The position numbers were made by a program, and so were the translations under genes. The notes beneath the pieces are model-generated. The model was given only the letters and a program-made list of their open reading frames with translations, made no database searches and was not told where the DNA came from. 41,001 nt of DNA from Beijerinckiaceae bacterium (lineage in GTDB: Bacteria; Pseudomonadota; Alphaproteobacteria; Rhizobiales; Beijerinckiaceae): assembly GCA_947478455.1 (NCBI GenBank), contig CANJWR010000016.1, positions 1 to 41,001 of the forward strand, read 5' to 3'. Positions 1 through 37,399 of this stretch are shown one piece after another. Every line of letters begins with the position of its first letter. Position 1 is the stretch's first letter.

Positions 1-47
1 GGACCCGAAATCCCGCCCCTCCCGAGACTCCTCCGTCACGCACCGAC

Positions 48-815: not shown

Positions 816-824
816 AATTGAGGA

Positions 825-2637: not shown

Positions 2638-2706
2638 AGATCGGCAGCCATTGCCATTCGGCGCAATCAGGCCGACAACAGGCCTGAGCATCGCCGGGAG
2701 CAATAC

Positions 2707-16460: not shown

Positions 16461-16543
16461 GCCTGTTCCGAACCGACGCTGCGGCGTAGGTTCGCCGGGC
16501 TTCCCGACGGCGAGTTCGCCGCGCACTTTTATCGAGGCAGGTC
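16461..16543. other. Spacer with 13-bp repeat before wecB-like gene
   Basis: The 83-bp spacer holds TAGGTTCGCCGGG at 16487-16499, which recurs exactly at 17681-17693 across the stop of the next gene. Downstream of each repeat copy lie a CGCCGCGC stretch and a CGAGGC Shine-Dalgarno area. The two leaders look related in plan; a role in RNA processing or recombination is only a guess. Confidence 0.4.
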
Positions 16544-17683
16544 ATGTCGAAGTCCTGGAGCATTCATTGCGTCGTGGGCGCACGGCCGAACTTTGTGAAG
16601 ATCGCACCGATCATGCGGGCGTTTCAGTCTCGCCCCGGCGTTACCATGCGGTTGATCCATACGGGTCAGCACTATGACGTGGCGATGAACGAGGCGTTCT
16701 TTACCGAACTCGCCATTCCACATCCGGACGTGAATCTCGAAGTCGGCGGCGGCACCAATACCGAGCAGACAGCCCGCATCATGCTGAAACTGGAGCCCCA
16801 GTTTCTTGCCGATCGTCCCGATCTCCTTTTGGTTGTCGGCGATGTGAATTCAACTCTCGCGACCTCGCTCGTCGCCGCAAAGCTTCAAATTCCGGTCGTT
16901 CATGTCGAGGCCGGTCTGCGCAGTTACGATCTGGCCATGCCGGAAGAGATCAACCGCCTTGTGACGGATCGCCTTTCGGCGTTGCTTCTCACCACAGAGA
17001 AAGCCGGGATTGAGAATCTTCTGCGTGAAGGCGTGCCGCGCGAGCAGATTGTTTTCGTCGGCAATGTGATGATCGACACATTGCGCGATTGTCTCGATCG
17101 TTCCCTTCCGGTCGACGCCACTTTGGCTGAAACCGGCGCTTCGCCGGACTTTATTGAGGCTGCCAAAAAGGGCCACGGCTTCGTGACGCTGCATCGCCCC
17201 TCGAATGTGGACGATCCGGCGCAATTGCGCGGCCTCATCGAGGCGCTTTCGGATGTATCACGCGATCTCTGTCTCATTTTCGCGATGCACCCGCGTACGC
17301 GCGGCGTGATCAAGTCGGCGGGCCTTGAGCCGCTTCTCACAAAAGGCCGCATTCACGCAACGCCGCCGCTCAGTTACCTGCGTTCGCTCGGCGTCATGCG
17401 TTCCGCGACCGTCGTGCTGACCGATAGCGGCGGCATTCAGGAAGAAACGACCGCGCTCGGCGTGCCGTGCATCACCATCCGCGACAACACAGAGCGCCCG
17501 ATCACCGTCGAGGAAGGCACGAATACGTTGCTCGGAAGTTCACCTGCGGCGCTGCGCCCGGCGGTCGAAGATGTTCTGAAGACCGGCGGAAAGCGCGGTC
17601 GCGTTCCTGAACTCTGGGATGGCAAGGCGGCGGTTCGCGTCGCCGATGCAACGCTGGAGTTCTTGCAGAAGCGCGCGGTTTAG
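16544..17683 (+). CDS. wecB: UDP-N-acetylglucosamine 2-epimerase (non-hydrolysing)
   Basis: A 379-residue cytoplasmic enzyme interconverting UDP-GlcNAc and UDP-ManNAc, or acting on the C6-oxidised forms as in WbpI-type enzymes. The family blocks are complete: VGARPNFVKIAPI, HTGQHYD, VGDVNSTLA, HVEAGLRSYDLAMPEEINR, FVTLHRPSNVD, TDSGGIQEETTALGVP and RDNTERPITVEEGTN. Length is standard. Placed right after the UDP-sugar dehydrogenase, it defines a pathway to a ManNAcA-type donor. The start has GAGGCAGG upstream. Confidence 0.95.
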   Translation: MSKSWSIHCVVGARPNFVKIAPIMRAFQSRPGVTMRLIHTGQHYDVAMNEAFFTELAIPHPDVNLEVGGGTNTEQTARIMLKLEPQFLADRPDLLLVVGDVNSTLATSLVAAKLQIPVVHVEAGLRSYDLAMPEEINRLVTDRLSALLLTTEKAGIENLLREGVPREQIVFVGNVMIDTLRDCLDRSLPVDATLAETGASPDFIEAAKKGHGFVTLHRPSNVDDPAQLRGLIEALSDVSRDLCLIFAMHPRTRGVIKSAGLEPLLTKGRIHATPPLSYLRSLGVMRSATVVLTDSGGIQEETTALGVPCITIRDNTERPITVEEGTNTLLGSSPAALRPAVEDVLKTGGKRGRVPELWDGKAAVRVADATLEFLQKRAV

Positions 17684-22964: not shown

Positions 22965-24983
22965 ATGTGCGGAATAGTCGGAATCTTCAGCTACGGCGAT
23001 GCGCTCAGGGTGGACGAAAACATCCTGACCCGGATGCGCGACACCATGATCCATCGCGGACCGGACGGCGGCGAGAACTGGGTCTCTGCTGATCATCGCG
23101 TCGGCTTTGGCCATCGTCGTCTGTCGATCATCGATCTCAGCACCAGCGCTTCTCAGCCGATGCCCAATGAAGACGAGACCGTCTGGGTTACCTATAACGG
23201 CGAGATTTACAATCACGCGGGTCTGCGCAAGGAACTTGTCGACGCCGGTCATCGTTTCCGCACTGACCATTCCGATACGGAGATCATTGTTCACGGCTAC
23301 GAGCAATGGGGCATCGACGGACTGCTAGAGCGTATTGAGGGCGACTACGCCATCGGCCTTTGGGATGTGAAGAAGGAAAAGCTGTTCCTCTTCCGCGATC
23401 GCATAGGCGTGAAGCCGCTTTACTTCACGCTGCAGAACGGCGCGATCATGTTCGGTTCGGAAATCAAGGCGATCCTCGCTCATCCGGCTATTGAACGCGA
23501 CGTCGATCCCGTCGCCATGTACCATTACCTGTCGTTTCTGACGACGCCGGCTCCGCTGACCATGTTCAAGGGCATCTACAAATTGCCCGCAGGCTATCTG
23601 ATCGAAGTCAGCAAGGACGGCGCCTTCAAGTCAAAGCGTTACTGGGACGCAATGCCCGGCAAGGGCATTCCGAAGTCGTCATTGGCCGGTCTCGACTGGC
23701 CTGCGCGTGAAGAACTTTACATCAAGGGCATTCGGGACAATCTGACGTCTGCGGTTGAAAAGCGCATGATGTCAGATGTGCCATTCGGCGTCTTCCTGTC
23801 CGGCGGCATTGATTCATCGGCCAACGTCGCGCTTATGTCGCGCTACATGGATCGTCCGGTCGACACGTTCACGGTTGGCTTCAAGGACTTCAAGCATCTG
23901 AACGAAATGGACGAGGCGAGCCTTGTGGCGCGCAAGTTCAAGACCAATCACCACGAAGTCCTGATCGAAGAAAAGGACATGCGCGGCTATCTCGGAAGCC
24001 TCATTCACTCGCAGGACGAGCCGATTGCCGACTGGGTTTGCATTCCGCTTTATTTCGTCTCGAAGTTGGCCAAGGACAGCGGCGTTACCGTCGTGCAGGT
24101 CGGCGAGGGATCAGACGAACAGTTTTGCGGCTATGCCAGCTATATGGGCTATCTGGAGCTCTACAAAAAATATTGGCAGCCGTTCCGCAAATTTCTACCG
24201 ACGCCATTGCAGCGCGCTGCCGCAGGGATCTTCGGCCTTGCAGCCGACTTCAAACCAGGTCTCGGCGTCTATGCCGACATTGTCGATCGGGCGAGCCGCA
24301 ATCGCGAACATTTCTGGAGCGGAGCGATGGTCTTCCCGGAATCGGTCAAGACAAAGCTCATCGATTCCAGCAAGCTTCATTCTGAGGGCGTGCCGCCGCA
24401 ATTGATTGAGTCCGGTATGCTGCCGCAGAGCTATCTGGAGCCAGATACGTTCAACGTCATCAAGTTCTTCAATCAGACCATCGATACGCAACATCCAGGT
24501 CAGGATGTCCTGACGCGCATGATTTACAACGAGTTCAAGCTGCGCCTTCCAGAACTTCTCCTGATGCGCGTGGACAAGATCGCCATGTCGGTCAGCATTG
24601 AGGCGCGCGTGCCGTTCCTCGATCACAATCTGGTCGACTACACGATGGACATTCCGATGGATGACAAGATCCACGGCAATGTCGCAAAATATCTTCTCAA
24701 GAAGGCTGTCGAAGGGCTCATCCCGGACGAGATCATCTATCGCAAGAAGATGGGCTTCGGCGCCCCCATGTCACAATGGATGCGCGGCGATTTCGGCAAG
24801 CAGGTCGAGGCCGGGATTCTTGGTTCCAAGTTGCTAAATCGCGGATGGTTTGATCGCGCTTACATCGCCAATCTGGCGAAAGAGCACCGAGAGAACCGGA
24901 ATGACTACAGCCTTTATCTCTGGACGCTCTATAATTTGACAGCCTGGTATGACTACTGGATCGACAGAAAGGCGCCGCAATAG
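22965..24983 (+). CDS. Asparagine synthase-like glutamine amidotransferase (AsnB family)
   Basis: A 672-residue cytoplasmic enzyme. The N-terminal glutaminase domain begins Met-Cys2-Gly, the Cys being the nucleophile after Met removal, with RGPDGGENW, GHRRLSIIDLS and YNGEIYNHAGLR. The synthetase domain has the PP-loop VFLSGGIDSSANVAL and VGEGSDEQFCGY (canonical GEGADE), and ends with KKMGFGAP. True asparagine synthesis is possible. However, genes of this family in sugar loci (WbpS type) are thought to convert the uronic acid carboxyl to an amide using glutamine and ATP. With the dehydrogenase and 2-epimerase in the same operon, amidation of a ManNAcA-like residue is the better inference. Confidence 0.9.
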   Translation: MCGIVGIFSYGDALRVDENILTRMRDTMIHRGPDGGENWVSADHRVGFGHRRLSIIDLSTSASQPMPNEDETVWVTYNGEIYNHAGLRKELVDAGHRFRTDHSDTEIIVHGYEQWGIDGLLERIEGDYAIGLWDVKKEKLFLFRDRIGVKPLYFTLQNGAIMFGSEIKAILAHPAIERDVDPVAMYHYLSFLTTPAPLTMFKGIYKLPAGYLIEVSKDGAFKSKRYWDAMPGKGIPKSSLAGLDWPAREELYIKGIRDNLTSAVEKRMMSDVPFGVFLSGGIDSSANVALMSRYMDRPVDTFTVGFKDFKHLNEMDEASLVARKFKTNHHEVLIEEKDMRGYLGSLIHSQDEPIADWVCIPLYFVSKLAKDSGVTVVQVGEGSDEQFCGYASYMGYLELYKKYWQPFRKFLPTPLQRAAAGIFGLAADFKPGLGVYADIVDRASRNREHFWSGAMVFPESVKTKLIDSSKLHSEGVPPQLIESGMLPQSYLEPDTFNVIKFFNQTIDTQHPGQDVLTRMIYNEFKLRLPELLLMRVDKIAMSVSIEARVPFLDHNLVDYTMDIPMDDKIHGNVAKYLLKKAVEGLIPDEIIYRKKMGFGAPMSQWMRGDFGKQVEAGILGSKLLNRGWFDRAYIANLAKEHRENRNDYSLYLWTLYNLTAWYDYWIDRKAPQ

Positions 24984-25056: not shown

Positions 25057-26226
25057 GTGAGTGAAACCTCAGTGCAAACAAGCCAAAGCCAATCGGAAGC
25101 CGCGATAAGGCGCGCCCTGCTTGACAGCAATGCTCGCCCTTATACCCGGCAGAGGATTGAAGACAGCTTTGAGGCGATCGACGCAACATTGGCGATTGCA
25201 GAGCCATTTCAGAAAGGCGCAGCAATCGATATTGGCTGCGGCGCCGGATATGATACTTTCGCGCTCGTCCGCCATTTTAAACAAGTTTGCGGCGTGGACG
25301 CCGATCAGAAGGCTGTTCGGGAAGCGCAAAGAATTGCTCGTCTCGCTCAAGTATCCAATATCGAATTTGTCATGGCGAGCATTGATCATTGGGTTCCGGC
25401 GGATCGCTACGATTTTGCACTCTGCAATCTGATGTCGCACAACGTGGCCTCGCGAGTGAAGCTGATTGAATCCATCGTGCAAATGATGAAGCGCGAGGGA
25501 GCTGCCGTCTATTCGGATGAATGCGAGGGCTACGCACCGATGGAGATTCATCGGGCAATCCTCAGTAAGGACAAAAGGGCATTGGTCGCCAGATTGCACC
25601 AATTGCTCTTCGGGTTCGTCGGCGGGACAGGTTTCAGATTTTTTATAGCAGGGAGCGCGCGCCCGATATTTGAACGCCTGGGGTGCGAAGTTTCACTGGA
25701 GAGGCGCAGTTTGTGGAACGGGATCGCGACAACAGATTTTCTGGTTGTTCGAAATCCGCAGGCTCTGACTTCGCAGAGTTCAATTCTGTCAGCACAGGAT
25801 AGCGACTATGCGCCTCTGGCCGGGGACTTTTCCGAACTGCGCGCCAGGTTTGTCGATGTCATCGAGAAGCGGCCAAACTCGGGATTGACGGCAGGAGCGC
25901 GAGAAGATCTGAAGAGGCAGGCTCGCGAAAGTTCAAATCGATTTGCGCCGTTTCTTTTGCATCTCGCAATGGCTGATCTGGTTTTGTCGCAGATATGGCC
26001 GGTAAATTCGCGGGGTCGCTTCCTCACGCGTGTTGGAAACCGTCTGGAGGCTTCAGCCGCAAGATTGCCCGGGCCACTCGAAAGGATCTGTCTGTGTGCT
26101 CTACGTGTCGCCGGTATCGGCTCGCCTGAAAAGGAATTCTCCTGGGACGCTGTGTCTGAACTCGATCGCGAGTTCATAGAAATAGCACGCAGACGCGCGG
26201 GGCTCGAGAATGGCATCGAAGACTGA
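25057..26226 (+). CDS. Class I SAM-dependent methyltransferase with C-terminal extension
   Basis: A 389-residue protein starting at GTG 25057. Residues about 40-230 form a Rossmann methyltransferase: motif I AIDIGCGAGYDT at 56-67, the acidic residue of motif II in VCGVDADQ, and FALCNLMSHN as the motif IV region. The last 150 residues (about 240-389) are helical and without a recognised family. The acceptor is unknown. The 3' end overlaps the following deacetylase-like gene by 17 bp, which begins a tightly coupled set (methyltransferase, deacetylase, transglutaminase). The same domains recur fused in the protein at 34646-37399. Confidence 0.85.
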   Translation: MSETSVQTSQSQSEAAIRRALLDSNARPYTRQRIEDSFEAIDATLAIAEPFQKGAAIDIGCGAGYDTFALVRHFKQVCGVDADQKAVREAQRIARLAQVSNIEFVMASIDHWVPADRYDFALCNLMSHNVASRVKLIESIVQMMKREGAAVYSDECEGYAPMEIHRAILSKDKRALVARLHQLLFGFVGGTGFRFFIAGSARPIFERLGCEVSLERRSLWNGIATTDFLVVRNPQALTSQSSILSAQDSDYAPLAGDFSELRARFVDVIEKRPNSGLTAGAREDLKRQARESSNRFAPFLLHLAMADLVLSQIWPVNSRGRFLTRVGNRLEASAARLPGPLERICLCALRVAGIGSPEKEFSWDAVSELDREFIEIARRRAGLENGIED

Positions 26227-27205
26227 TATCGAAGACTGTGGCCTCGTTCGCGATAATTCGCGAATTGAAGGCCGTCATTTGATCATAACAAACGACTTTG
26301 AGGCCTTCAGGGCTGACTCGATGCCGCTGTGGCGACCTGCCATGAAGCATTGGGCTGTATGTTCGCAAAAGTTCCGTCTGCCGACAAGTTTTTTTGTCGC
26401 GCTTGAAGATGCTGCAGCGCTTTCACACTGTGACGGCGCTGGCTATGCGGCATTGATCGATGGCTTGCGTGATCTTGTAGGTTCCGGTGCTGAACTCCAT
26501 CCACATAACCATTTCCTTTTCGATCCGCTCACTGGTGTGCGGCCGACCAGCGAGAACGAGCCGGTTCTGCCTGACGGTTATACCAAGCGGCTCAGCATGT
26601 TTTTTGATGTCGTTCATCGTCATGGATTGCCAATTGGACCCTGGCTCGAAACCCTCCGAGAGATTCATGCAAAGCTTATGTCCGATGTCGGGCGGGCTTC
26701 GCCTCGCAGATTGGCCTTTCGGGCAGGCGGCTGGGACTATGGCAGCAGCTGCGATGAGCTCTCTGCCTATGTCGAAGGTCTCGCCCGCGCTGGGTTTGCG
26801 GTGGATTCAAGCGCGTGCCGCGGCCGGTTTGGCACGACGAACTGGCTGGCCGAGACGCCCTTTGGTTCGAACGTTTTTAGATTGAAAAGCGGCGTTCTGG
26901 AGATTGGTCCCAGCCTCCATCTAAATTGCGGCAGGGACTCGACCTGGCGTCTCCTGGTCGACCTCGGTCTGGCGTTGCGTCGGCACCCCGGATTGCTCCG
27001 GAGGCAAGATGGAGCGCTTGTGGTTGTCCTGCATTTTGACCATCTTTTCCATGAATACGGACCAAGGGGCGCGCAGGAAAATTTTGTCGTCAAGGATTTC
27101 AACGTCGTAAGGGGTCGCATTGACTGCATATTTCAGGCGCTACAACGCCTGAAGTTGATGCTCGGGCTAAAGGCGACAACCTTTAGTGAGGCGGCAGTTT
27201 TATGA
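26210..27205 (+). CDS. Polysaccharide deacetylase-like protein (CE4/WalW-like)
   Basis: A 331-residue protein with a divergent NodB/CE4 fold. Motif 1 is D29-F-E31 in ITNDFEAF, motif 2 the histidine run ELHPHNH (His97, His99, His101), and motif 3 FRAGGWDYG with Arg171. This D-x-E, H-x-H, FRAG arrangement differs from the classical TFDDG / H-S/T-x-x-H pattern and resembles what I recall of the WalW subgroup from lipopolysaccharide loci. N-deacetylation of an acetamido sugar would be the expected chemistry, but divergent metal ligands make this uncertain. No signal peptide is present, so action would be cytoplasmic. It overlaps both neighbours (17 bp upstream, 4 bp downstream). Confidence 0.75.
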   Translation: MASKTDIEDCGLVRDNSRIEGRHLIITNDFEAFRADSMPLWRPAMKHWAVCSQKFRLPTSFFVALEDAAALSHCDGAGYAALIDGLRDLVGSGAELHPHNHFLFDPLTGVRPTSENEPVLPDGYTKRLSMFFDVVHRHGLPIGPWLETLREIHAKLMSDVGRASPRRLAFRAGGWDYGSSCDELSAYVEGLARAGFAVDSSACRGRFGTTNWLAETPFGSNVFRLKSGVLEIGPSLHLNCGRDSTWRLLVDLGLALRRHPGLLRRQDGALVVVLHFDHLFHEYGPRGAQENFVVKDFNVVRGRIDCIFQALQRLKLMLGLKATTFSEAAVL

Positions 27206-28098
27206 TGGCGGCGATCATACTATTCACTTTGCTCTCGAGCGCCATTGCAGACGGGATGCTTGTTCTGTGGTTGATACGAAATGCGCTTCTCAATCCAAAG
27301 CCGGTCGATCTGAGTCGGTTTGTTCCTCCGTCCTCGCTTTCTGTGGAAAGTGTGCGGGCTCGACTTGCGGATGAGCCATGGATTGACGCCGAGCCTTTGA
27401 CCCGCTGCCTGGCCGCGATGCGCTGGACGATGAACAAGGTTGGCAGCATAGAGGTGAACGGGGAAAGGCTGCCAGAGCAACTCATTTCATCAGTCGAAGC
27501 CGGACGTGGAGCGCTTTGCGGGAATATGGCAACGCTTTTCAGCTATGTTTTGTCGGCTGTGAATGTCGAAAATCGGATCATGTTTCTGGCAAGGAATATA
27601 TTCGACACCGGTGACGTTCACGCGGTCGTAGAGGTCCGTATCAACGACCGCTGGGTCGCGCTCGACCCGACGTTCAACCTGACATTTCATTCGCCGACTG
27701 GCGAAATGCTCGCCTCCCAGGAGATCAAGCAGAGCCTGTACGCCAATGGCGCGCGGGATATCGTTACGCGTTTTCATGGCGATGTGGCTTATCCTGCGCG
27801 TGTCGAAGCCTATTATGCCAGCATCTTTATATTCTTTAACAATGTCTTCGTGCTAGAGCGCGATCCGTTGTGGCTGGGGCTATTGCCTGCGCGACCCGGC
27901 TGGAAACTGAGGCCGCTTATGCAAAGCCGGCGAGTCTATTTTCAGAACGCAAAACTGGAAGGCGGCGCACATCTGAATTTCATGCGGCGCTTGTACCTTG
28001 TTGCGATCTATCTCCTCGGACGGATATTATTCTGGCTTCTGCTTTTTGTTTGGTATGGCTCGCAAATCGCATCGTCGTTTCTTGCCAGTTGGGGCTAG
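27202..28098 (+). CDS. Transglutaminase-like membrane protein
   Basis: A 298-residue protein with an N-terminal hydrophobic segment (residues 1-28), a soluble transglutaminase/cysteine-protease-like core, and a C-terminal hydrophobic segment (about 263-298). The papain-like triad is visible: Cys106 in GALCGNMATLF, His140 in DVHAVVEVRIN and Asp155 in WVALDPTFN. The start ATG overlaps the deacetylase stop by four bases. Family members act as transglutaminases, amidases or peptidases, some being inactive folds. In a polysaccharide locus with a free amino group made by a deacetylase, amide-bond formation or cleavage is an attractive but unproven role. The same triad with identical His-Asp spacing is found in the fused protein at 34646-37399. 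Confidence 0.8.
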   Translation: MMAAIILFTLLSSAIADGMLVLWLIRNALLNPKPVDLSRFVPPSSLSVESVRARLADEPWIDAEPLTRCLAAMRWTMNKVGSIEVNGERLPEQLISSVEAGRGALCGNMATLFSYVLSAVNVENRIMFLARNIFDTGDVHAVVEVRINDRWVALDPTFNLTFHSPTGEMLASQEIKQSLYANGARDIVTRFHGDVAYPARVEAYYASIFIFFNNVFVLERDPLWLGLLPARPGWKLRPLMQSRRVYFQNAKLEGGAHLNFMRRLYLVAIYLLGRILFWLLLFVWYGSQIASSFLASWG

Positions 28099-28198
28099 GC
28101 TTTGGGCGTCAAATTGGTGTCTGTCGGCAGTAAGGGGTATGTAGTCCCGCGCTGCTTGGTTAAAACGTCATGCTGTCGCCTGGTCGGTAGCCATGGTC

Positions 28199-28221
28199 GG
28201 GTTGGTGGGTCTATCCAACCC
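28199..28221 (+). repeat. Hairpin-forming inverted repeat in a 200-bp operon gap
   Basis: GGGTTGG (28199-28205) and CCAACCC (28215-28221) form a perfect 7-bp stem with a 9-base loop. It lies in the 28099-28298 gap, the largest break in the otherwise near-continuous 25-37 kb gene run. There is no T-tract, so it is not a typical terminator. RNA processing or partial attenuation before the methyltransferase gene is possible. The rest of the gap shows no convincing gene. Confidence 0.35.
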
Positions 28222-28298
28222 AAGCGGGAATACATGCTGGTGATGAATGTGCCTATCTGCGTCGCGGCAGGTTTCGAAGGAACGGGGAACGAATACGA

Positions 28299-29234
28299 AT
28301 GACCTCCATTTCGGAAACGTCACTGTTTTGGCTGCTGCGCCTCGCGCAATATACGCCCTTCCGGGGTAACAACAATTCATTCGCTACTTCCGGCGAAACG
28401 AAGACGAACGACGATTTTCAACAGGCGCGCCTCGAAGCCTTGAACTGTCCCGAGTTCGTTGGCTTTTTTCGTGAGCGCCCGCTGAACCTGGCCGGTCAGG
28501 ATGTGCTTGATCTGGGTAGCGGTTACGGCGGCAAAACAGTTGAATATGGCAAACAGCTGGGCGCCCGAAAGGTTGTCGGAATTGAGCCCTACGCGAACAT
28601 GGTTCAAAAGGCCGTTGAATATGCGAGGAGCGTTGGCGCTGACAATATTGAGTTTCGTCATTGCGCCCATCTGGACATTCCTGCGGCCGACGGGGAGTTT
28701 GACGCGATTCTGAGCCATGACGTTATAGAGCACGTCGAAAATCCCGGCTCGACTCTTGCTGAAATGTACCGTGTCCTGAAGCCGAACGGGGTCGCTTACG
28801 TCGTTTTCACTCCCTATTGGGGAGCGTTCGCGCATCACCTTGGCTATGTTTGTCGCGCCCCTTTCATTCACTGGTTCTTTGGTGCCAGAACGATTGTGAA
28901 CGCCGTCAATCGCTTGCTGTCCGGGAAGGGCGGAGAGCGTTTTGGAACATCTCTGCAGCCGGCGCCAAAGAGAAAATTCGACGGCGGGAGAGAGGTTCTG
29001 CCAACTCTGAACGGAATAGGTGGAGCCGAAATGCTTCAACTGGCGCAGGAAATTGGCTTTGAGGTTTGCTACGTCAAATACCCGACCATTATCAGCAGGT
29101 TCGCGCCCAATGCGCGAATGTTGGACCGGTTCAATGTATTCCTGATGAAGCTGCATCCATTTATGGAAGAGGCCATGAGCTACAATCTGACATGCATCCT
29201 GTCGAAGAAGCCATCCGGCGCCGCGACAGTCTGA
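28299..29234 (+). CDS. Class I SAM-dependent methyltransferase
   Basis: A 311-residue methyltransferase. Motif I is DVLDLGSGYGGKT (residues 68-80), followed by VVGIEPYANM with the acidic SAM-ribose ligand, and ILSHDVIEHVENPG with the post-motif II EHV signature seen in ubiquinone/sugar-type methyltransferases, then MYRVLKPNG. The C-terminal part contains a hydrophobic, aromatic stretch (HLGYVCRAPFIHWFFG) that may contact the membrane or a lipid-linked glycan. Acceptor unknown. It completes the split-gene set that parallels the four-domain fusion protein. Confidence 0.9.
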   Translation: MTSISETSLFWLLRLAQYTPFRGNNNSFATSGETKTNDDFQQARLEALNCPEFVGFFRERPLNLAGQDVLDLGSGYGGKTVEYGKQLGARKVVGIEPYANMVQKAVEYARSVGADNIEFRHCAHLDIPAADGEFDAILSHDVIEHVENPGSTLAEMYRVLKPNGVAYVVFTPYWGAFAHHLGYVCRAPFIHWFFGARTIVNAVNRLLSGKGGERFGTSLQPAPKRKFDGGREVLPTLNGIGGAEMLQLAQEIGFEVCYVKYPTIISRFAPNARMLDRFNVFLMKLHPFMEEAMSYNLTCILSKKPSGAATV

Positions 29235-29293
29235 CGAGCTCTGCAATGGGTTCGGACGCCGCACCAGTGTCCGCCAGACGGAAGAATAGAAGC

Positions 29294-31378
29294 ATGACAT
29301 TTTCTGAAAGGAGCTCCGTTTCCAGACCGGTGACCTCGGTGAGTTCTCATACTGCGCGCTATTATCCCGATCTCGACGGGTTGCGCGCTCTTGCAGTTGT
29401 GCCTGTGGTCTTGTTCCACGCTGGAGCAACTTGGCTGCCGGGCGGATTTGTTGGCGTCGACGTTTTCTTCGTGCTGTCGGGTTTCTTCATCACGCGACAG
29501 TTGATTGCAGATATCGACAGCAGACGCTTCTCTATCCTGAAATTCTACGAGCGTCGCGCCCGCCGCATCCTGCCTGCGCTTTTTGCGCTACTCCTGATAA
29601 CGACGCTCGTCGCAACGGCATTGCTTGTGCCTCCAGATCTGGTGTCGTTTGCGAAGAGCCTGCTGGCCACTCTTGGTTTCTGGTCCAATGTCCATTTCTG
29701 GCTGGAGACCGGCTATTTCGCGCAAGCTGCGCATCTGAAGCCACTTCTCCACACGTGGTCGCTGGCGGTGGAAGAACAATTCTACATCTTCTTTCCACCG
29801 TTGCTTTGGCTGTTGCACCGCTATTGCAAATCATGGGTCCTGGGACTGCTTGCTATATCTGCGGCCATATCTTTCGGACTTGGTGTTTGGGGCAGCACTC
29901 ACGCGACATCTGCGACGTTCTATCTATTGCCAACGCGGGCGTGGGAGTTGCTGGCCGGTGCGATGATCGCGCATGCGCACGGTCTTCGCCTTGGGCAATC
30001 CGCCCGACACCTGTTATCGATCGTAGGGCTTGCCATGGTCATGGCGAGCCTCTTTTTGATCGATGGGGCGACGCCATTTCCCGGATGGGCGGCGGCTTTT
30101 CCGGTACTTGGATCAAGCTTTGTTGTGCTTGCGAGTGTGGCTGGCGGCGGGATCGGAAATCGGGCGCTGACGCCGCGTCCTGTCGTGTTCGTCGGCGAAA
30201 TCTCCTATTCGCTTTACCTCTGGCATTGGCCTCCGCTGGCGTTGTTTCACTATAGTCTGTTCCGCACGCCCGATGCTTACGAGGCCGCCCTGATCATCGC
30301 TTTCGCTTTTGCCTGTTCGGTCTTGTCCTGGCGCTATATCGAGCGGCCGTTCAGGGGCTCGGGCAGTCAGATCAGCGTCTGGAAGCTCGGATTGCTTGTT
30401 GCTGGCACAGCGGCGACGTTTGCGATTGCCGCGACGGCTATTATCAGATGGGATGGTCTGCCGGGCCGTCTGAACAGCGAGGCGCGCGCGTACCTTCAAG
30501 ATGAGTCCTTCGCCGTGCCCTCCGAGTGCTTCTATCGCAGCCCGGTCGACATAGCGGTCGGCAAGGCTTGCTTGATCGGAGCTCCGGGGGAAGCAACAAC
30601 GTTTGTGGTTTGGGGAGATTTGCACGCAAGCCGGATTGCCAATACCATGACAAACTGGGGGAAGGCGAGCGGCCTGACAGGCTGGCAGGCAGCGAAAGGT
30701 TCGTGTCCCCCATTGGTCGGCGCAACATGGGCCGGTGACCAACTGGGCTGCTCCGCGTTCAACATAGCCGTTCAAGAAAGAATCGCGGGCGATGGCGCAA
30801 AGGTTGTTGTGCTGTCCGCAATTTGGGCGAACTACGCAGAAGGCAACTTGCTGAGTAATCTCCAAGCTAGCAATCCGCTCAGAGACGGTGAAAGTCCAAC
30901 TCAATCTGGTTTCCGCACACGTGCTGAGCAGGTCTCCGAGAACCGGAGCGCATTCAAGCGCTCATTCCTGCGCACCGTCGCGGCGCTGCGCAAAGCAGGC
31001 AAGCTTGTTCTGATTGTCGGCCCCGTGCCGGAACTGGAGTGGTCGGCTCCCCATCGGCTGGCGTCGGCAGCACAATTCGGCAGGCTTCCGCCCAACGGGC
31101 CGCCGCTGGAAAGTTTTCTTGAGCGCCAACGCCATGTGCTCGAAGTCCTGAAGGAACTCGGCCAGCTGGAAGGCGTCGCGGTGGTTTACCCGCACGAGGT
31201 CCTCTGTGGCGACCGCGTATGCGACATCGTCCGGAACGGCAAGCGGCTTTATTTCGACGACAACCACATCGACATGGAGGCGAACCGATTGCTTGAGCCG
31301 ATGATTGCTGCGGGGTTTGAACGGCTCGGAGTGCGGTCGGTGAATGGCGGCGACAGGGGCCGGGGGGCGGTGCAATGA
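29294..31378 (+). CDS. OafA-like acyltransferase with C-terminal SGNH-like domain (Ser nucleophile replaced)
   Basis: A 694-residue membrane acyltransferase-3 protein. YYPDLDGLRALAVVPVVLFHAG and GGFVGVDVFFVLSGFFIT open the membrane part, FYERRARRILPAL and HTWSLAVEEQFYIFFP follow, giving about ten helices to residue 380. A periplasmic SGNH-type domain (about 420-690) follows, as in O-acetyltransferase OafA. Its block I reads WGDLHA, with Leu443 (codon TTG at 30620) in place of the nucleophilic Ser of GDSH, while Asp655 and His658 in FDDNHIDM are kept. The membrane domain should move acyl groups to the periplasmic side; the SGNH domain may be inactive or altered. I choose ATG 29294; ATG 29246 is an alternative adding 16 residues. 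Confidence 0.88.
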   Translation: MTFSERSSVSRPVTSVSSHTARYYPDLDGLRALAVVPVVLFHAGATWLPGGFVGVDVFFVLSGFFITRQLIADIDSRRFSILKFYERRARRILPALFALLLITTLVATALLVPPDLVSFAKSLLATLGFWSNVHFWLETGYFAQAAHLKPLLHTWSLAVEEQFYIFFPPLLWLLHRYCKSWVLGLLAISAAISFGLGVWGSTHATSATFYLLPTRAWELLAGAMIAHAHGLRLGQSARHLLSIVGLAMVMASLFLIDGATPFPGWAAAFPVLGSSFVVLASVAGGGIGNRALTPRPVVFVGEISYSLYLWHWPPLALFHYSLFRTPDAYEAALIIAFAFACSVLSWRYIERPFRGSGSQISVWKLGLLVAGTAATFAIAATAIIRWDGLPGRLNSEARAYLQDESFAVPSECFYRSPVDIAVGKACLIGAPGEATTFVVWGDLHASRIANTMTNWGKASGLTGWQAAKGSCPPLVGATWAGDQLGCSAFNIAVQERIAGDGAKVVVLSAIWANYAEGNLLSNLQASNPLRDGESPTQSGFRTRAEQVSENRSAFKRSFLRTVAALRKAGKLVLIVGPVPELEWSAPHRLASAAQFGRLPPNGPPLESFLERQRHVLEVLKELGQLEGVAVVYPHEVLCGDRVCDIVRNGKRLYFDDNHIDMEANRLLEPMIAAGFERLGVRSVNGGDRGRGAVQ

Positions 31379-33402
31379 CCAGCGATATTATCGGGAAAAT
31401 CCGGCGCGGTCTCAAAAAGTCGCCGCGCTATATCGTCGAGCGTCTGGTGCAAGAACTGCACGGCCAGGCGGAACGTCATCTAGCGCCACGGCGCGCTGCA
31501 CGCACGCGAGCGACTGACCTGGCGCGTGCTGCGGGTCACAACAGCGTGGCGGCGTGGTGGTCTGCGTTGGCTTTGCGACCGTTCTTGGCAGCGACAAAGA
31601 TGGATCGTGCGACGCTCGACCGTCTGTGCCCGGGCGATGTGGATGCTATCCTTAAGGATGCAGACCGGGCGCTTCGGCGCGAGATCGATTTGCTTGGCTC
31701 TGGTCCGCTCACGCTGGGCGCGCCCGTCGACTGGATGAAAGACTACAAGACCGGACATCGTTGGGAACCGCGCTACTGCCGCGATATCGAATATTCCAAC
31801 CTTGACCGGCCGAGCGACGTAAAAATGCCGTGGGAAATCTCGCGCATGCAATGGCTGATTCCTGCGGGGCAGGCCTATGCGTTGACCGGCGAGGAGCGCT
31901 ACGCGACCTGTGTGCGTGATCTGATCGACGAATGGATCGCCGCCAATCCCTGCGCCATGTCGGTGAACTGGTCCTGCACCATGGACGTGGCACTGCGCGC
32001 GATGACGTGGACCTGGCTCTTCCATGCACTGCACACGAGCCAGGCATGGTCAGAGTCCGGATTCCAGGAACGCTTCCTGCGCTCGCTCTGGCTCCATGGC
32101 GATTTCACCGCCCGGCATCTCGAAAAGTCGGACATCAACGGCAACCACTATACGGCGGATGCTGCCGGACTTGTGTTCGTCGGACTGTTCTTTGGCGATG
32201 AGCGCACCGCGCAACAATGGCATCGCCTCGGCTGGGAGATCCTCGTCGACGAGCTGCCGCGTCAGGTGTTTGCCGATGGCGTCGATTTCGAAGCGTCGGT
32301 TCCCTATCATCGCCTCGTTCAGGAATTATTCCTGCTGCCTGCGCTCTATCGCAAGAAGCTCGGGCATCAGACGCCGGCGTCATACCGGGAACGCCTATTG
32401 GCGATGGCGCGTTTCACGGAAGGCTATTCGCGCGCCGACGGAAGCGTGCCGCTGTGGGGCGACGCCGATGATGCACGCGCGTTGCCGTTCCGCCAGCAGC
32501 CGATCAACGATCATCGCTATCTGCTTGCGATCGCCGGGGTGGCTCTCGATCAGCCGACGCTGATTGAAGCATTTTCGGGACCGCGGTCGGAAGCGGTATG
32601 GCTTCTGGGCGCGGCGGCAGCTGCGGAACTGCCGGATCGTGCGATACGGATGGATGTTCCGCATTCAGTCGCCTTCGCCGAGGGCGGATTTTTTGTGCTG
32701 CGGAATGGCCGCGATCACGTCTTTGTCGATTGTGGTCCACTCGGGCTCGCCGGTCGCGGCGGTCACGGACACAACGACCTTCTGTCGTTCGATGCGGTGC
32801 TCAATGGCGTGCATCTCGTCAGCGACTGCGGGGCGTATCTCTACACCGCGAGTATGGCAGAGCGGAACAATTTCAGGTCGACCGGCTATCATAATACGCC
32901 GCGCGTAGATGGTCAGGAGATCAACCGTTTCATCAGACCTGATTATTTATGGACGCTCTACAATGACGCCCGCCACGTGGTCGAGGAGGTTGGCTTCAAT
33001 CAGGACCGTGATCTTCTGAAGGTAGGACACACCGGCTACGAGAGGCTGGAACCGCCCGTGAAGTTGCGCCGTACATTTGAACTCAATCACTCAACACACG
33101 AGCTGATTGTAGTCGATGAATTCGTCGGCGCAGGGTCGCACGATGTCGAGACGCCGATCCATTTCGCCGAAGGCGTGTCAGTAGAGTTGGGGACGGAGGA
33201 AGCGGTGTTGAGGGCAGGCGCGCGCGCCTTCGTGGTGACCTGGAGCGACCCCGCAGACTGGCAAGTCTCGGTCGAAGCGGCGCGGGTTTCGCCGACCTAC
33301 GGCGTTGTGCGTCCGACGCAACGGCTGATATGGCGGCGGTCGGGAGAACTGGCGGCGTTGAAAGTGACGATCGTCCCCGGGCCTGCGGCCTTGCACGCAT
33401 GA
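31375..33402 (+). CDS. Heparinase II/III-family protein (second copy)
   Basis: A 675-residue relative of the protein at 18994-20700, but clearly divergent. The toroid region has MPWEISRMQW, NWSCTMDVALRAMTW, INGNHYTADAAGLVFVG and DGVDFEASVPYHRL, with the Tyr-His expected at the catalytic centre. The beta-domain contains GHGHNDLLSFDAVL and YHNTPRVDGQEINRF. No signal peptide is seen; the N-terminus is basic. It overlaps the acyltransferase stop by four bases (ATGA) and the flippase start by four bases. Two non-identical heparinase-type proteins in one biosynthetic locus suggest different sites of action on the same uronic-acid glycan. Confidence 0.88.
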   Translation: MTSDIIGKIRRGLKKSPRYIVERLVQELHGQAERHLAPRRAARTRATDLARAAGHNSVAAWWSALALRPFLAATKMDRATLDRLCPGDVDAILKDADRALRREIDLLGSGPLTLGAPVDWMKDYKTGHRWEPRYCRDIEYSNLDRPSDVKMPWEISRMQWLIPAGQAYALTGEERYATCVRDLIDEWIAANPCAMSVNWSCTMDVALRAMTWTWLFHALHTSQAWSESGFQERFLRSLWLHGDFTARHLEKSDINGNHYTADAAGLVFVGLFFGDERTAQQWHRLGWEILVDELPRQVFADGVDFEASVPYHRLVQELFLLPALYRKKLGHQTPASYRERLLAMARFTEGYSRADGSVPLWGDADDARALPFRQQPINDHRYLLAIAGVALDQPTLIEAFSGPRSEAVWLLGAAAAAELPDRAIRMDVPHSVAFAEGGFFVLRNGRDHVFVDCGPLGLAGRGGHGHNDLLSFDAVLNGVHLVSDCGAYLYTASMAERNNFRSTGYHNTPRVDGQEINRFIRPDYLWTLYNDARHVVEEVGFNQDRDLLKVGHTGYERLEPPVKLRRTFELNHSTHELIVVDEFVGAGSHDVETPIHFAEGVSVELGTEEAVLRAGARAFVVTWSDPADWQVSVEAARVSPTYGVVRPTQRLIWRRSGELAALKVTIVPGPAALHA

Positions 33403-34649
33403 CAATCGCAAAAGCTTTTCGTGGCCCGCTCGCGCGTTCGATTGCCGTTACATTCGGCGCCAAGATCGTCGGCGCAATGCTGGCGTTGGTGACATCCGTG
33501 ATCATCGCGCGGACTCTGGGCCCCGAAGGGCGGGGGGCTTTCGCGGCCGTTTCAGCCTTGGCGGGAATCGGCAGCCAGTTCGCCAATCTCGGTCTGCAGG
33601 CTTCCAATTCCTACTATCTGGCGCGCGACAGAAGTCTACTGCCGACCGTTGCCGCTAATTCGGCCGCAGTTTCGCTCGTAGCCGGCCTTACGGCCGCATC
33701 CGTGCTCGCTGTTTACGCGCTTTGGAGCGGCATGGCCGCTGATGTGGGATCGGGGCTGCTGACAGTCGCCCTGTTGGGCATTCCTGTCAGCCTCGCCTAC
33801 ATGCTCTTCGTCGGTCTCCTGATTCCGATGTCGAAGGTAGGGCAATTCAACCGGGTAGAAATAGCGATCAAGATCTTGACGCTCATTCTGATTTTGGGCG
33901 TTTCCTTACTGGATTCGGCGCCAACGGCTCTGCAATTTCTTTTTGCAGGCCTCGTGGCGCAGATCGTGATGGTTGTTGCGGCCTGGCGGAGCATCAATCT
34001 TCCAGTTGGCACGCTGAGCAAACTGTCTCTGCCACAATTGCTGGAACATCTCCCCTTCGCTTTTCGCGCCCATCTGGCGTCCTTCTTCGCTTTCCTCCTA
34101 GTCCGGATTGATATGCTGATGGTGCAGCAAATCTCCGGCAATGCCGAGGCAGGATACTACTCCATTGCCGTGTCGATGGCCGATCTACTCTACATGTTTC
34201 CGGCTACGGTCGGTGCGCTGTTGTTCCCTCGCCTGAGTGCGGTGAACGACGAATCAAGTCGCCTCAGGGCGACGCTCAAGGCCTTGCTGGGCACTGCGGT
34301 TGCAATGTCGCTGATGGCGATCGCGGCAGTCTTTTTGGCAGCTCCTCTCATCGGCCTCATGTTTGGCGAGCGCTTTCTGCCGGCAGCGCCAATGTTTCAT
34401 GTTCTCGCCTTGGCTATCGTTGCCTATGGCCTCAACAACGTGCTTTCAAATCATATGGCGTCCATCGGCCTTCCCTGGAAAGGCGTATGGCTTTGGCTGG
34501 TCGGGGTTGTCGTCAATATTGTATTGAACCTTTATTGGATCCCGGCCTATGGGGGGTGGGGAGCGGCGATGGCCTCGCTCGTCGCCTACGTGCTGGTCCT
34601 CATCGTCCAGACTGGCGTAGTATTTGGTGTACGGGGAGTCGTTCGGTGA
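33399..34649 (+). CDS. Wzx-type polysaccharide flippase
   Basis: A 416-residue inner-membrane protein with about twelve hydrophobic helices of the MOP (Wzx/MATE/MurJ) superfamily. Typical are the amphipathic start, SVIIARTLGPEGRGAF in the first loop, HLASFFAFLLVRIDMLMVQQISG in the middle and AEAGYYSIAVSMADLLYMFPATVGALLFPRLS after it. It should flip the undecaprenyl-linked repeat unit to the periplasm. I start at ATG 33399, overlapping the heparinase gene stop by four bases; the open frame extends upstream but only into the neighbour's coding region. The stop overlaps the GTG start of the next gene (GTGA). Confidence 0.9.
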   Translation: MTIAKAFRGPLARSIAVTFGAKIVGAMLALVTSVIIARTLGPEGRGAFAAVSALAGIGSQFANLGLQASNSYYLARDRSLLPTVAANSAAVSLVAGLTAASVLAVYALWSGMAADVGSGLLTVALLGIPVSLAYMLFVGLLIPMSKVGQFNRVEIAIKILTLILILGVSLLDSAPTALQFLFAGLVAQIVMVVAAWRSINLPVGTLSKLSLPQLLEHLPFAFRAHLASFFAFLLVRIDMLMVQQISGNAEAGYYSIAVSMADLLYMFPATVGALLFPRLSAVNDESSRLRATLKALLGTAVAMSLMAIAAVFLAAPLIGLMFGERFLPAAPMFHVLALAIVAYGLNNVLSNHMASIGLPWKGVWLWLVGVVVNIVLNLYWIPAYGGWGAAMASLVAYVLVLIVQTGVVFGVRGVVR

Positions 34650-37399
34650 CGGTGGTGCGGGACTTCGAGAGACTTTACCGTGAGCAGGACGATCCCTGGG
34701 GGATCGGGGCTGCAGACTCCGACCGCTATAGACGCTACCTGGAGTTGATTGCGCCCCACGCAAACGGGACGGTTCTGGATATCGGTTGTGGCTTCGGGGC
34801 GATGCTGTCCCAACTGGCGCAAACGGCCGCAAGTCTGGACGGAGTGGAAATCAGCGCCACAGCCATCGAAAAGGGACGCCAGCGCTTTCCGTTCGTCACT
34901 TTTCATCAGGGTTCGGCCTCGACCCTGGACCAGGTTACGGCGCTGCAGAATCGCAAATTCTCCCTGATCGTCGCCAGCGACGTGATCTATTACCTCGCTG
35001 ACCGTGACAAGGAGGCGATGCTCGGCTGGATAAACAGCCATCTGGAACCCGATGGCGTGGCGTTCATCGCCGCCTGGTGCCCGGGTGGAAAGTATCTGAC
35101 GTCTCGCGAACTTCTGGATGTCACATCAGGCCGGCTCATTGTGTCGCGGCAGGAAGCGCTTCCGCAATCGGGGCACCTCGCTTTGCTTTGCCGCAAGCGC
35201 CGCCGCCTCGCCGCAATCACAATCGACTACGAGACTTGGCATCCAATTCCGGAAGGCAAGGAGATAAACTGGGACCGCGATGTTTTCGAGCCGACCGAGC
35301 GGCTGTTCAGCCTTTTCGAAAAGACCGGGGTCGCCGCCACCTTTTTTGCCGAGATGGGCGAGTATTTCTGGTTGCTGGAAAACGAACCAGCCCTGGCTGC
35401 GCGCATGGAGGAGCAGTGGCGCGAGGCGGTAGGCCGAGGTCATGACGTGCAGCTCCACCTGCACCCCTGCTGGCTGCCGGAAACCGGGGCCAAATTCGAG
35501 GATGGCAAGTGGTGGTGGGATTGGTCGAAGGGCAAGGCCGCCAACTATCCGGGCGACCTCAGCAAGCTGATCGGTCGATGCAAACAGTCGCTGGAGAACC
35601 TCCTTCGCCCGGTCAAGCCTGACTATTCCGTGACCAGCTTCCGGGCTGGCGGTTATCAGGCCCAACCCTTCGAGTTGCTGTCGAAGGCCTTGATCGACAA
35701 CGGCATCCTCTGCGACAGTTCAGTCCATCCCCACGGGACGAACTCCGAGCGCGGCTATGAATATCTGACCCCGTTCACGACGCACCAACCTTATTTTGCG
35801 GACTTGCTGGATCCGCAGATGAAAGCTGTGCCGGCGGAAGAGGCCATCGTTGAATTGCCTATCTTTACGCCAGAGTTCGGTCAACGCTGGTTTATAGATG
35901 GGGCCGAGGGAAAGCGGCTGGCAGAACGCCTCATCTCCTATGAGCGGCGACGCGTTCCGGCCTTTTCTTCCCGGTATCGACGGATGCTGAACACGTTGCG
36001 CCATTATAGTTCCATGGCCTACAGTCTGACTGCGCGCCATCGTGGGCTGATCAACCGGCTGTTGCCGCGCAAACTGGCATATGCGCTCGTTGCCTACGAA
36101 AACCCGCGACCATTCGGCAATCTTTATTATGTAGCGATCGGCCACACGAAGGCTGATCTGCATTTCGATGCGCTGGAAAGCAACCTGAACTCGCTTCGCG
36201 AGACGCTTGATTTGGAATATGTGACGATCTCCGACATGGCTTCAGTGGCGAAGTCAGAGATCGAGGATACAAGGCGGCGCACTGCAGACGACGAGATGGC
36301 CTATCAGGTCAGTCGTGAACGCGAGGCGATCCTGGGTGAAAGTCGAAACGAAGCGCAGTCATTTTATTTGCAGGAGATGATTCCACTCGACAAGCAACGC
36401 GTTCTCGATTTCGGCTGCGGCGCCGGATACTGGAGTGCGCGAATTGCGGAACTGTATCCCTGGATGAATGTCACGGGTCTCGACGCCGGCGTCGATTTCA
36501 TCGCCAAGGCTCGCAAGCTTTATGAGAGCCCCCGTGTAAATTTCGAGGTTGGCGACTTCGCCAGGCTTTCCCATCCGGACGGCGCGTTCGACTGTGTTTA
36601 CGCCGACAACACGCTGGAACACGGCTTCGACGTGGATGCGACCCTGCGCGAGATCTATCGCGTTCTCGCACAGGGTGGAGTGCTGGTGGCGGCTATCCCG
36701 GTTGACGGTCTCAATCCCGGTGAGGAATGTGACAATCATACTTGGAGGACCGTGGCGGCCCAGATCCGTCTGCGCTTGGAGCGCGCCGGATTCTCGAACA
36801 TCTTCATGGAGGAGGTGGACACTTACCGCAAGCTCGGTATGCCGCCCTACATGCCATCCCTTGATCGGATGGTTTACCTGCGGGCCTGGAAGGCGGAGGG
36901 CGGCGACGATCGCCTGAAACGCGCGCTGCGAGCCATGGATTGGTTGTATCGCCGCATCGATCCCAACAAGAACAATCAGTCGCAGGACGGCAAGCAGATC
37001 ATCGCAGACGGCTTTGGGTATTGTCTCGCCTACACTGTTTCACTCGGGCAACTCCTCAAGCGGGAAGGCTACGACATAATCTGGGTTACCATGTGGGCGG
37101 CTGGTCACGAACGTGGCGAAGGTCCGGATTCGCTGGACTCTCATGAAGTGATCGAAATGCGGCTGGATGGTGAATGCTATCTGCTGGATCCTATGGCCAA
37201 CAGCTCATTTCCCTATTCGACCGAGCAATTGCTGAAAACCCCCGCGCTTGCTGATCGAACAGCAAATCGTGACGAGCGTTGCCAGGCAAGGGGTTATCAT
37301 CTTTACAATACCGCTTATTGGTACGAGCGTGTCACCAAGTTTTCGCGGCGCCGGAATATCAGGTTCCCATGGCTTTACTGGAAGAAAAACCGCAAATGA
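34646..37399 (+). CDS. Four-domain fusion: NodS-like methyltransferase, CE4-like deacetylase, methyltransferase, transglutaminase-like
   Basis: A 917-residue multidomain protein in one uninterrupted frame from GTG 34646, which overlaps the flippase stop. Domain 1 (about 1-190): methyltransferase with a DDPWG motif (15-19) as in NodS-type enzymes, and VLDIGCGFGA (43-52). Domain 2 (about 190-560): CE4/WalW-like deacetylase with Asp194 in ITIDYETWHP, His271/His273 in QLHLHPCW, and Arg333 in FRAGGYQ. Domain 3 (about 565-770): second methyltransferase, VLDFGCGAGYW at 586-596, and NTLEHGFD. Domain 4 (about 770-880): transglutaminase-like with Cys793 (GFGYCLAY), His833 (DSHEVIEM) and Asp848 (LLDPMAN). 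No signal peptide or membrane helix is visible. The same four domain types occur as separate genes at 25057-29234. Function is inferred to be glycan tailoring; no characterised homologue with this order is known to me. Confidence 0.85.
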   Translation: MTVVRDFERLYREQDDPWGIGAADSDRYRRYLELIAPHANGTVLDIGCGFGAMLSQLAQTAASLDGVEISATAIEKGRQRFPFVTFHQGSASTLDQVTALQNRKFSLIVASDVIYYLADRDKEAMLGWINSHLEPDGVAFIAAWCPGGKYLTSRELLDVTSGRLIVSRQEALPQSGHLALLCRKRRRLAAITIDYETWHPIPEGKEINWDRDVFEPTERLFSLFEKTGVAATFFAEMGEYFWLLENEPALAARMEEQWREAVGRGHDVQLHLHPCWLPETGAKFEDGKWWWDWSKGKAANYPGDLSKLIGRCKQSLENLLRPVKPDYSVTSFRAGGYQAQPFELLSKALIDNGILCDSSVHPHGTNSERGYEYLTPFTTHQPYFADLLDPQMKAVPAEEAIVELPIFTPEFGQRWFIDGAEGKRLAERLISYERRRVPAFSSRYRRMLNTLRHYSSMAYSLTARHRGLINRLLPRKLAYALVAYENPRPFGNLYYVAIGHTKADLHFDALESNLNSLRETLDLEYVTISDMASVAKSEIEDTRRRTADDEMAYQVSREREAILGESRNEAQSFYLQEMIPLDKQRVLDFGCGAGYWSARIAELYPWMNVTGLDAGVDFIAKARKLYESPRVNFEVGDFARLSHPDGAFDCVYADNTLEHGFDVDATLREIYRVLAQGGVLVAAIPVDGLNPGEECDNHTWRTVAAQIRLRLERAGFSNIFMEEVDTYRKLGMPPYMPSLDRMVYLRAWKAEGGDDRLKRALRAMDWLYRRIDPNKNNQSQDGKQIIADGFGYCLAYTVSLGQLLKREGYDIIWVTMWAAGHERGEGPDSLDSHEVIEMRLDGECYLLDPMANSSFPYSTEQLLKTPALADRTANRDERCQARGYHLYNTAYWYERVTKFSRRRNIRFPWLYWKKNRK

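Follow-up and report, generated by a model that had tools for sequence, protein, structure and literature searches.

A single-chain protein combining a CE4/WalW-like domain, a transglutaminase fold and two methyltransferases in bacterial polysaccharide loci

We analysed contig CANJWR010000016.1 from the draft genome of a Beijerinckiaceae bacterium (317 contigs, 92% complete, 4.8% contaminated). The whole contig, 41,001 bp in length, is further referred to as the window. The gene at 34646–37399, on the forward strand like P0001–P0004 and the flippase, 3' glycosyltransferase, asnB-type, oxidoreductase, dehydrogenase and epimerase genes described below, encodes a protein of 917 aa (P0005) composed of a NodS-like methyltransferase (MT1), a CE4/WalW-like deacetylase domain (CE), a second methyltransferase (MT2) and a transglutaminase-fold domain (TG). 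As its relatives recur in distant phyla, often within clusters for cell-surface polysaccharides, P0005 probably represents a hitherto undescribed type of enzyme, one that would exchange chemical groups on sugars within a single chain. Its parts are of known kinds; their combination with the transglutaminase fold in one chain is new, and no description of the fusion was found in searches of an open PMC library, which lacks most subscription papers. CE and TG are the constant pair of the fused family, being present in each of the 15 proteins found, which come from at least six phyla.

Domains of P0005

The GTG start codon of P0005 at 34646 overlaps the stop codon of the preceding flippase gene (at 34649) by 4 nt. 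This start is supported by the relatives having MT1, which align from the same N-terminus. The four domains that the earlier note had read from the sequence were all recovered: MT1 in residues 1–185 (34646–35200), CE in residues 186–545 (35201–36280), MT2 in residues 546–739 (36281–36862) and TG in residues 740–917 (36863–37396). When the whole protein was compared with Pfam, two methyltransferase stretches scored above the cut-off. MT1 matches Methyltransf_23 (58.6 bits) and NodS (PF05401, 51.8 bits with the cut-off of 24), both above cut-off; methyltransferase models other than NodS score higher. The Pfam NodS cut-off is also passed by the relatives from loci L082, L084 and L085. The cut-off of the NCBIfam NodS equivalog (300 bits) was not reached by MT1 (50.8 bits). 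MT2 matches Methyltransf_25 (75.3 bits). The model of the whole P0005 has a mean pLDDT of 81.0, and the 50 matches listed in the fold search with this model were filled by methyltransferases, NodS (3ofk) among them.

The transglutaminase fold of TG is well supported by family profiles and a predicted structure. Transglut_core (PF01841) scored 15.7 bits on the whole protein and 19.9 bits on the domain alone, missing the cut-off of 23, which is passed by the relative L085 (25.3 bits). At E≤0.1 this model was found in 11 of the 12 fused relatives (best E-value 8e-10). The AlphaFold model of TG has pLDDT of 93.4, and the Foldseek search with it ranked TG/papain-like enzymes first, in the order TglA of S. 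pyogenes (E-value 5.7e-5), a putative cysteine protease and the endoisopeptidase PeiP; arylamine N-acetyltransferases and geldanamycin amide synthase were placed lower. Residues C793, H833 and D848 are invariant in all 12 aligned proteins and make up the Cys-His-Asp triad of a TG/papain-like fold. Given that only 2 of 543 matches had E≤0.001 and that TM-scores by query length were 0.33–0.50 among the 50 matches listed, the domain can be placed clearly in the superfamily but not in a subfamily.

The deacetylase assignment of CE is weaker. The motifs D194-Y-E, H271-x-H273 and FRAGG (332–336) were checked residue by residue; D194-Y-E, H271-x-H273 and R333 are invariant in the 12 aligned proteins, including the candidate CE4 metal ligands, one Asp and two His (D194, H271, H273). 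Polysacc_deac_1 (PF01522) scored 13.7 bits on the whole protein and 15.2 bits on the domain alone, missing the cut-off of 23.1, and was found at E≤0.1 in two of the 12 relatives (best E-value 0.021). For the deacetylase part, TIGR03006 scored 20.5 bits (E-value 2.1e-4, cut-off 276). PF01522 has five matches in the genome, none of them on the window contig. WalW-type CE4 proteins share with CE the D-Y-E, H-x-H-P, RAGGY and HPK pattern, whereas most of them are stand-alone proteins of about 375 aa. The label WalW for proteins of this type comes from a conserved-domain database; it was returned by no search.

No hydrophobic segment was found in P0005 (no 19-residue window above hydropathy 1.6), and hydropathy gives no sign of an export signal or a membrane segment. 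A PDB sequence search returned no match for the TG domain, the CE domain, the window protein P0002 described below or profile A1; profile A3 matched TgpA (6g49, E-value 0.27).

Recurrence and gene context of the fused pair

The CE profile was used to scan 84,980 genomes. The pattern was matched by 382 stretches, 288 of which encoded relatives; the best 80 loci were retained, and in 11 of these the TG domain is encoded in the same open reading frame (ORF) as CE. The TG profile was used to scan 149 genomes from the phylum of L085 and matched 16 of them, four strongly (L085's own genome, L188, L189 and L190) and 12 weakly (E-values from 4e-7 to 8e-4). The resulting set comprises the window protein and 14 others, many of them encoded in polysaccharide loci, so that the recurrence of this domain combination in such loci, named as a check in the earlier note, is borne out for the fused form.

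Four architectures are observed. MT1-CE-MT2-TG is encoded in the window, L081, L082, L084 (cut at the contig end), L085, L086 and L188; the same order with a C-terminal glycosyltransferase, in L093, L189 and L190; CE-MT2-TG without the first methyltransferase, in L083, L088, L089 and L090; and CE-TG alone in L087, where separate methyltransferase-like ORFs lie 5' of the flippase gene. Full-length identity to P0005 is 50–52% for L081–L086 and 37–41% for the other five aligned proteins. Per domain, identity to the six close relatives equals 48–53% for CE, 59–63% for MT2 and 40–45% for TG; for MT1 it is 48–52% in five of the six, L083 having no MT1.

The acidobacterial five-domain ORFs are located at L093:7227–11588, L189:6549–11717 and L190:8012–13429, and their glycosyltransferase part is homologous to the product of the window gene at 37279. 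The L189 and L190 ORFs (1722 and 1805 residues) were counted as five-domain proteins like L093; since the conserved start lies after the first approximately 270 (L189) or 356 (L190) residues, these residues are most likely upstream read-in. A gammaproteobacterial bin encodes a 789-residue MT-CE-MT protein without TG (L092:9422–11791); genes for an oxidoreductase, a heparinase-like protein and an epimerase lie next to it.

In a tree built from 25 CE domains, P0005 falls into a nine-row group (support 98/97) with proteins labelled Cyanobacteriota, Nitrospinota, Myxococcota, Acidobacteriota and Bacteroidota and with the unplaced L087; L089 is labelled Ignavibacteriota. This mix of phyla points to transfer of the CE-TG genes between them, with the reservations that 9 of the 22 inner branches are open, that several rows deviate in composition and that most sources are metagenome bins. 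L087 (bacterium 1xD8-48) is titled as a strain and not as a metagenome bin, and hence a culturable carrier may exist; its two-domain version is accompanied by epimerase, dehydrogenase, oxidoreductase, asnB and flippase genes.

The whole P0005 matched all 41 relatives compared (own genome included), but every listed match other than P0005 falls within the methyltransferase regions or extends across them and is therefore uninformative about the fusion. Among plasmids, 123 records matched the whole protein, none covering 80% of the query, and none matched the TG domain or the window protein P0003 (see below). CE-MT2-TG was not found in viral contigs, and a TG-only scan of genome contigs yielded 37 pattern matches, none confirmed. 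As a single query, the TG domain matched only the window itself among 396 phylum genomes, and CE matched 32 of 398; TG was not detected in 20 loci fetched from the CE-matching genomes.

The flippase gene (33330–34649 in the window; Polysacc_synt PF01943, 49.5 bits) lies directly 5' of the fused gene in 9 of the 15 loci, that is, in the window and in 8 of the 14 others (L081, L082, L084, L085, L086, L087, L093, L188). The glycosyltransferase gene found 3' of P0005 (37279–39120; Glyco_trans_1_4, 52.6 bits; the listed start is TTG and the true start is probably later) recurs as a homologue that follows the CE-TG gene or is fused with it in six of the 14 other loci (L082, L083, L087, L093, L189, L190), giving 7 of 15 with the window. 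Genes for the asparagine-synthase-type (asnB-type) enzyme and for the oxidoreductase occur in seven of the 15 loci each, namely the window, L082, L084, L087, L093, L189 and L190. As several contigs are short, these counts are lower bounds.

We then compared TG and non-TG loci of at least 7 kb among the best 80, by similarity to window genes and with kinship uncorrected. The flippase is found in six of eight TG loci vs one of 63 non-TG loci, the glycosyltransferase in 4/8 vs 0/63, the second heparinase type in 4/8 vs 1/63, and the oxidoreductase in 4/8 vs 5/63.

Loci without detected TG show a different partner of the deacetylase. We scanned 91 immediate co-directional neighbours of CE from 69 such loci (including L091, where CE is cut by the contig end and the protein is possibly fused). 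The commonest neighbour family was Antibiotic_NAT (PF02522), with 18 of the 91; no homologue was seen among 82 ORFs five genes away. NAT homologues are present in 22 of 69 loci without TG and in none of 11 with TG (Fisher test, 0.03), some of the TG loci being short. These counts suggest that the deacetylase often has a partner that forms amides, a place that TG may take in the fused proteins. Stand-alone WalW-like deacetylase genes stand directly beside an Antibiotic_NAT gene in L094 (109–969), L098 (9105–9974), L114 (9072–9938) and 15 further loci, which suggests a deacetylate-and-reacylate pair.

Possible reaction and its alternatives

The domains present, the conservation of their catalytic residues, the occurrence of relatives in distant phyla, the constant CE-TG pair and the gene context are observed; the cytoplasmic site, the order of steps, the formation of an amide, the donor and the sugar of the following mechanism are inferred. 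Its core, comprising N-deacetylation in the cytoplasm, formation of an amide on the freed amine by TG, and methylation, all before flipping, is proposed with a confidence somewhat short of even. P0005, as part of a Wzx/Wzy-type polysaccharide locus, would be an enzyme that tailors sugars in the cytoplasm. CE would N-deacetylate an amino sugar, either within the lipid-linked repeat unit or as its nucleotide precursor. By transamidation or N-acyl transfer through a Cys thioester, TG would form a new amide at the amine thus freed, possibly from a carboxamide that the asnB-type enzyme encoded nearby supplies. The targets of the two methyltransferases would be the amine, the newly added acyl group or a hydroxyl, and the tailored product would be flipped afterwards.

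This mechanism is favoured by the retention of CE and TG in all four architectures, by the invariance of both sets of catalytic residues in the 12 aligned proteins, by the flippase gene lying directly 5' in 9 of 15 loci, by the resemblance of MT1 to NodS in Pfam, with NodS (3ofk) also in the fold list of the whole model, and by the presence of arylamine N-acetyltransferases and an amide synthase among the fold neighbours of TG. The lack of hydrophobic segments in P0005 and the dependence of methyltransferases on S-adenosylmethionine (SAM) count for the cytoplasmic site, and the NAT partners of TG-less relatives, for amide formation by TG. A precedent for deacetylation followed by acylation, which also counts for the mechanism, is provided by the Wbp/Vim scheme of P. 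gingivalis and T. forsythia. PMC7468200 proposes VimE as the deacetylase, VimA as the enzyme adding an amino acid and WbpS as the amidating one; the function of WbpS-type asnB is described in PMC3684757 as well. As is proposed for the P0005 locus, a CE4-type deacetylase is proposed to free an amine and a second enzyme to re-acylate it, an asparagine-synthase-type enzyme makes the uronamide, and the deacetylase and its partner are encoded together. In contrast, VimA is N-acetyltransferase/FemAB-like rather than a TG fold, the proteins are separate, and the scheme includes no methyltransferases. No GNAT or FemAB family is found among the Pfam matches of the main window ORFs, VimA itself not having been compared. 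The NAT-partner pattern agrees with this scheme and with the order NodB, then NodS, given in PMC5080398.

Several observations weigh against the mechanism. The CE4 assignment (PF01522) is sequence-based and lies below the Pfam cut-offs. Foldseek also places proteases and endoisopeptidases first, and hydrolysis is therefore equally compatible with the TG fold. The 18 NAT-neighbour loci are not independent of each other, since by label 17 belong to Bacteroidota (and one to Cloacimonadota). ATP-grasp enzymes are another route to amides, and their families give no support, with 2/91 beside CE vs 2/82 in the control. In five of the 15 CE-TG loci, the domains themselves aside, both the flippase gene directly upstream and the homologue of the glycosyltransferase are missing, or the contig is too short to show them. 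The asnB gene is not clearly enriched with TG (4/8 vs 12/63; Fisher test, 0.07), nor are dehydrogenase (1/8 vs 10/63) and epimerase (1/8 vs 20/63) genes, so that a fixed amidated ManNAcA substrate is not favoured.

The main rival is deamidation of the kind performed by WbmE of Bordetella bronchiseptica, which we consider unlikely, though far from negligible. Here the asnB-type enzyme would amidate a uronic acid and TG would remove amides, setting the charge, while CE and the methyltransferases would act elsewhere. WbmE, as quoted in PMC3507681, is a TG-superfamily enzyme of a surface polysaccharide locus that deamidates O chains rich in uronic acid amides. Its counterpart here would find support in the asnB-type gene of seven of the 15 CE-TG loci, in the UDP-sugar dehydrogenase of the window locus and in the proteases and endoisopeptidase among the top fold neighbours of TG. 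However, WbmE is a periplasmic post-assembly deamidase, separate from any CE or methyltransferase domain, whereas P0005 has no hydropathy segment that would place it in the periplasm, and deamidation leaves both the constant link to the deacetylase and the NAT partner of TG-less relatives unexplained.

Rather improbable is N-methylation as the main chemistry, with CE freeing the amine, the NodS-like domain methylating it and TG being hydrolytic or structural. The NodS match of MT1 in the window, L082, L084 and L085 would fit this, as would the synthesis of Nod factors, in which deacetylation precedes SAM-dependent N-methylation of the same sugar by NodS, similar to MT1 in fold and Pfam family; by PMC5080398, NodB and NodS are nevertheless separate proteins that act on chitin oligomers with the acyl group coming from NodA and no TG fold involved. 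MT1, moreover, is missing from 5 of the 15 CE-TG proteins, whereas the Cys-His-Asp residues of TG are kept in all 12 aligned. Joining of the glycan or sugar to a peptide or protein by TG, through an isopeptide or aminoacyl-sugar bond, is very improbable: isopeptide bonds are made by TG-fold enzymes and the Wbp/Vim linking sugar is N-aminoacylated and attached to proteins (PMC7468200), but the locus suggests no peptide substrate, sortase or cargo signals not having been looked for.

We return to deacetylation followed by re-amidation. The wider claim that a TG-fold enzyme acts as a cytoplasmic sugar transamidase, one chain deacetylating, re-amidating without ATP and methylating as a mobile assembly-line module shared by distant phyla and fused in some lineages to a glycosyltransferase, is a speculative one, more doubtful than probable. 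If it is true, the transglutaminase fold is to be counted among those of enzymes rebuilding amide groups on sugars of the bacterial surface, the CE-TG fusion becomes a marker for glycans with unusual N-substituents, and P0005 lets an entire tailoring sequence be tested within one chain.

Split genes and the rest of the locus

The earlier note had set P0005 beside four separate genes, reading them as a second occurrence of the same domain set and both sets as a possible undescribed glycan-tailoring system. The five ORFs concerned are all present, the separate ones being P0001, a methyltransferase (25057–26226; Methyltransf_31, 55 bits), P0002, a CE4/WalW-like protein without Pfam match (26210–27205), P0003, a transglutaminase-fold protein (27202–28098; Transglut_core 31.0 bits, cut-off 23) and P0004, a methyltransferase (28299–29234; Methyltransf_11, 75.6 bits). 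P0002 starts inside the P0001 gene, and P0003 overlaps P0002 by 4 nt. As a tailoring module the proposal is supported by the fold of TG and by the recurrence of the fused form; its further part, by which the split genes would repeat the fused set as an equivalent, is not supported.

Both transglutaminase assignments, of P0003 and of the C-terminal domain of P0005, hold by Pfam, profile comparison and Foldseek. In hhalign comparison, P0003 matches the fused TG family with 96.9% probability, and P0002 matches the CE family with 93.8%, over 163 columns covering the metal-ligand and RAGG regions. Direct similarity of split and fused proteins is weaker evidence, with E-values of 2e-4 for TG with TG, 0.04 for CE with CE and 9e-10 for P0004 with MT2. 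By these comparisons P0003 is a distant homologue of TG and P0002 a remote relative of CE. In the PDB sequence search P0003 matched two lipases (E-values 0.16 and 0.22). MT2 of P0005 is closer to a methyltransferase on contig C11 (E-value 2.6e-10) than to P0004 (3.9e-6), and by their sequences the split methyltransferases are not specific counterparts of the fused ones.

The shared motifs cited in the earlier note are real: P0002 has D29-F-E, H97-x-H99 and FRAGG from residue 170, and the triad of P0003 (C106/H140/D155) has the same 15-residue His-Asp spacing as that of P0005. They do not tie the two sets specifically to each other, since the D-Y-E/H-x-H/RAGG pattern is found in all 12 WalW-like sequences aligned, the spacing varies from 15 to 17 among fused relatives, and it equals 15 (H226/D241) also in HvyA of Caulobacter. 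HvyA, described in PMC4241560, is a TG-like Cys-His-Asp protein of a capsule locus and differs from P0005 in being unfused and a predicted periplasmic negative regulator of capsulation.

As P0002 and P0003 overlap and each matches a fused-family profile, CE and TG genes adjoin in the split set too. This overlap, the adjacency and the two profile matches are the basis on which the split genes may act jointly, and the two proteins P0002 and P0003 may together have a related function that combines CE with TG. It is possible, though clearly short of even, that the genes at 25057–29234 are instead a chance neighbourhood of surface-glycan genes functionally unrelated to P0005. Such a neighbourhood would agree with the generic split methyltransferases and with the absence of the P0002-P0003 pair from the genomes sampled: P0003 was found in one of 51 same-genus genomes (its own) and in two of 299 phylum genomes (one being its own, the other a weak match on a 5.2-kb contig where no CE was detected), and P0002, in two of the 299 (its own and a 43-residue match). 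It agrees less well with the 4-nt overlap of two genes that each match a fused-family profile, or with the TG profile, for which P0005 and P0003, both on the window contig, are the two matches of the 4.6-Mb genome at E≤0.001; among the ORFs of 100 relative loci and the window, only P0003 (E-value 6e-7) was found besides the fused proteins. P0003 has two hydrophobic segments, 1–25 and 263–287, predicted from hydropathy to be membrane segments, and the flanking charged residues lie on the TG side. By the positive-inside rule, the TG domain of P0003 would then be cytoplasmic.

The polysaccharide locus spans the window from 15054 onward, as judged by Pfam matches of the main ORFs. It starts with UDP-sugar dehydrogenase and UDP-GlcNAc 2-epimerase genes (15054–17683), followed by a glycosyltransferase, a heparinase II/III-like protein, a bi-domain oxidoreductase (zinc alcohol dehydrogenase with GFO/IDH/MocA, 20799–22937) and the asnB-type amidotransferase (22965–24983; Asn_synthase, 305 bits). 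The latter scores above the cut-off of TIGR01536 (484 bits) and below that of the XrtA/PEP-CTERM amidotransferase model TIGR03108 (530.6 bits, cut-off 816.9). The four split genes, an acyltransferase-SGNH protein, a second heparinase-like protein, the flippase, P0005, the glycosyltransferase and Wzy_C follow in this order. A full-length homologue of the oxidoreductase is present in two of 50 other same-genus genomes, surrounded in both (L212, L213, L214) by epimerase, glycosyltransferase, heparinase-like and asnB-like genes, and neither CE nor TG was detected on the stretches fetched from them. The CE-TG genes thus look like accessories of the window polysaccharide locus.

Four ORFs at the beginning of the window (1–3201), namely 48–815, 966–1751, 2220–2687 and, on the minus strand, 1873–3201, had no Pfam match at E≤0.001. 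Rfam and tRNA searches gave no matches. The ORF at 29066–31378 encodes an acyltransferase-3 fused to an SGNH domain; the TTG listed as its start falls within P0004, so that translation probably begins further downstream. The two heparinase II/III-like proteins of the locus, encoded at 18994–20700 and 31375–33402, are different from each other.

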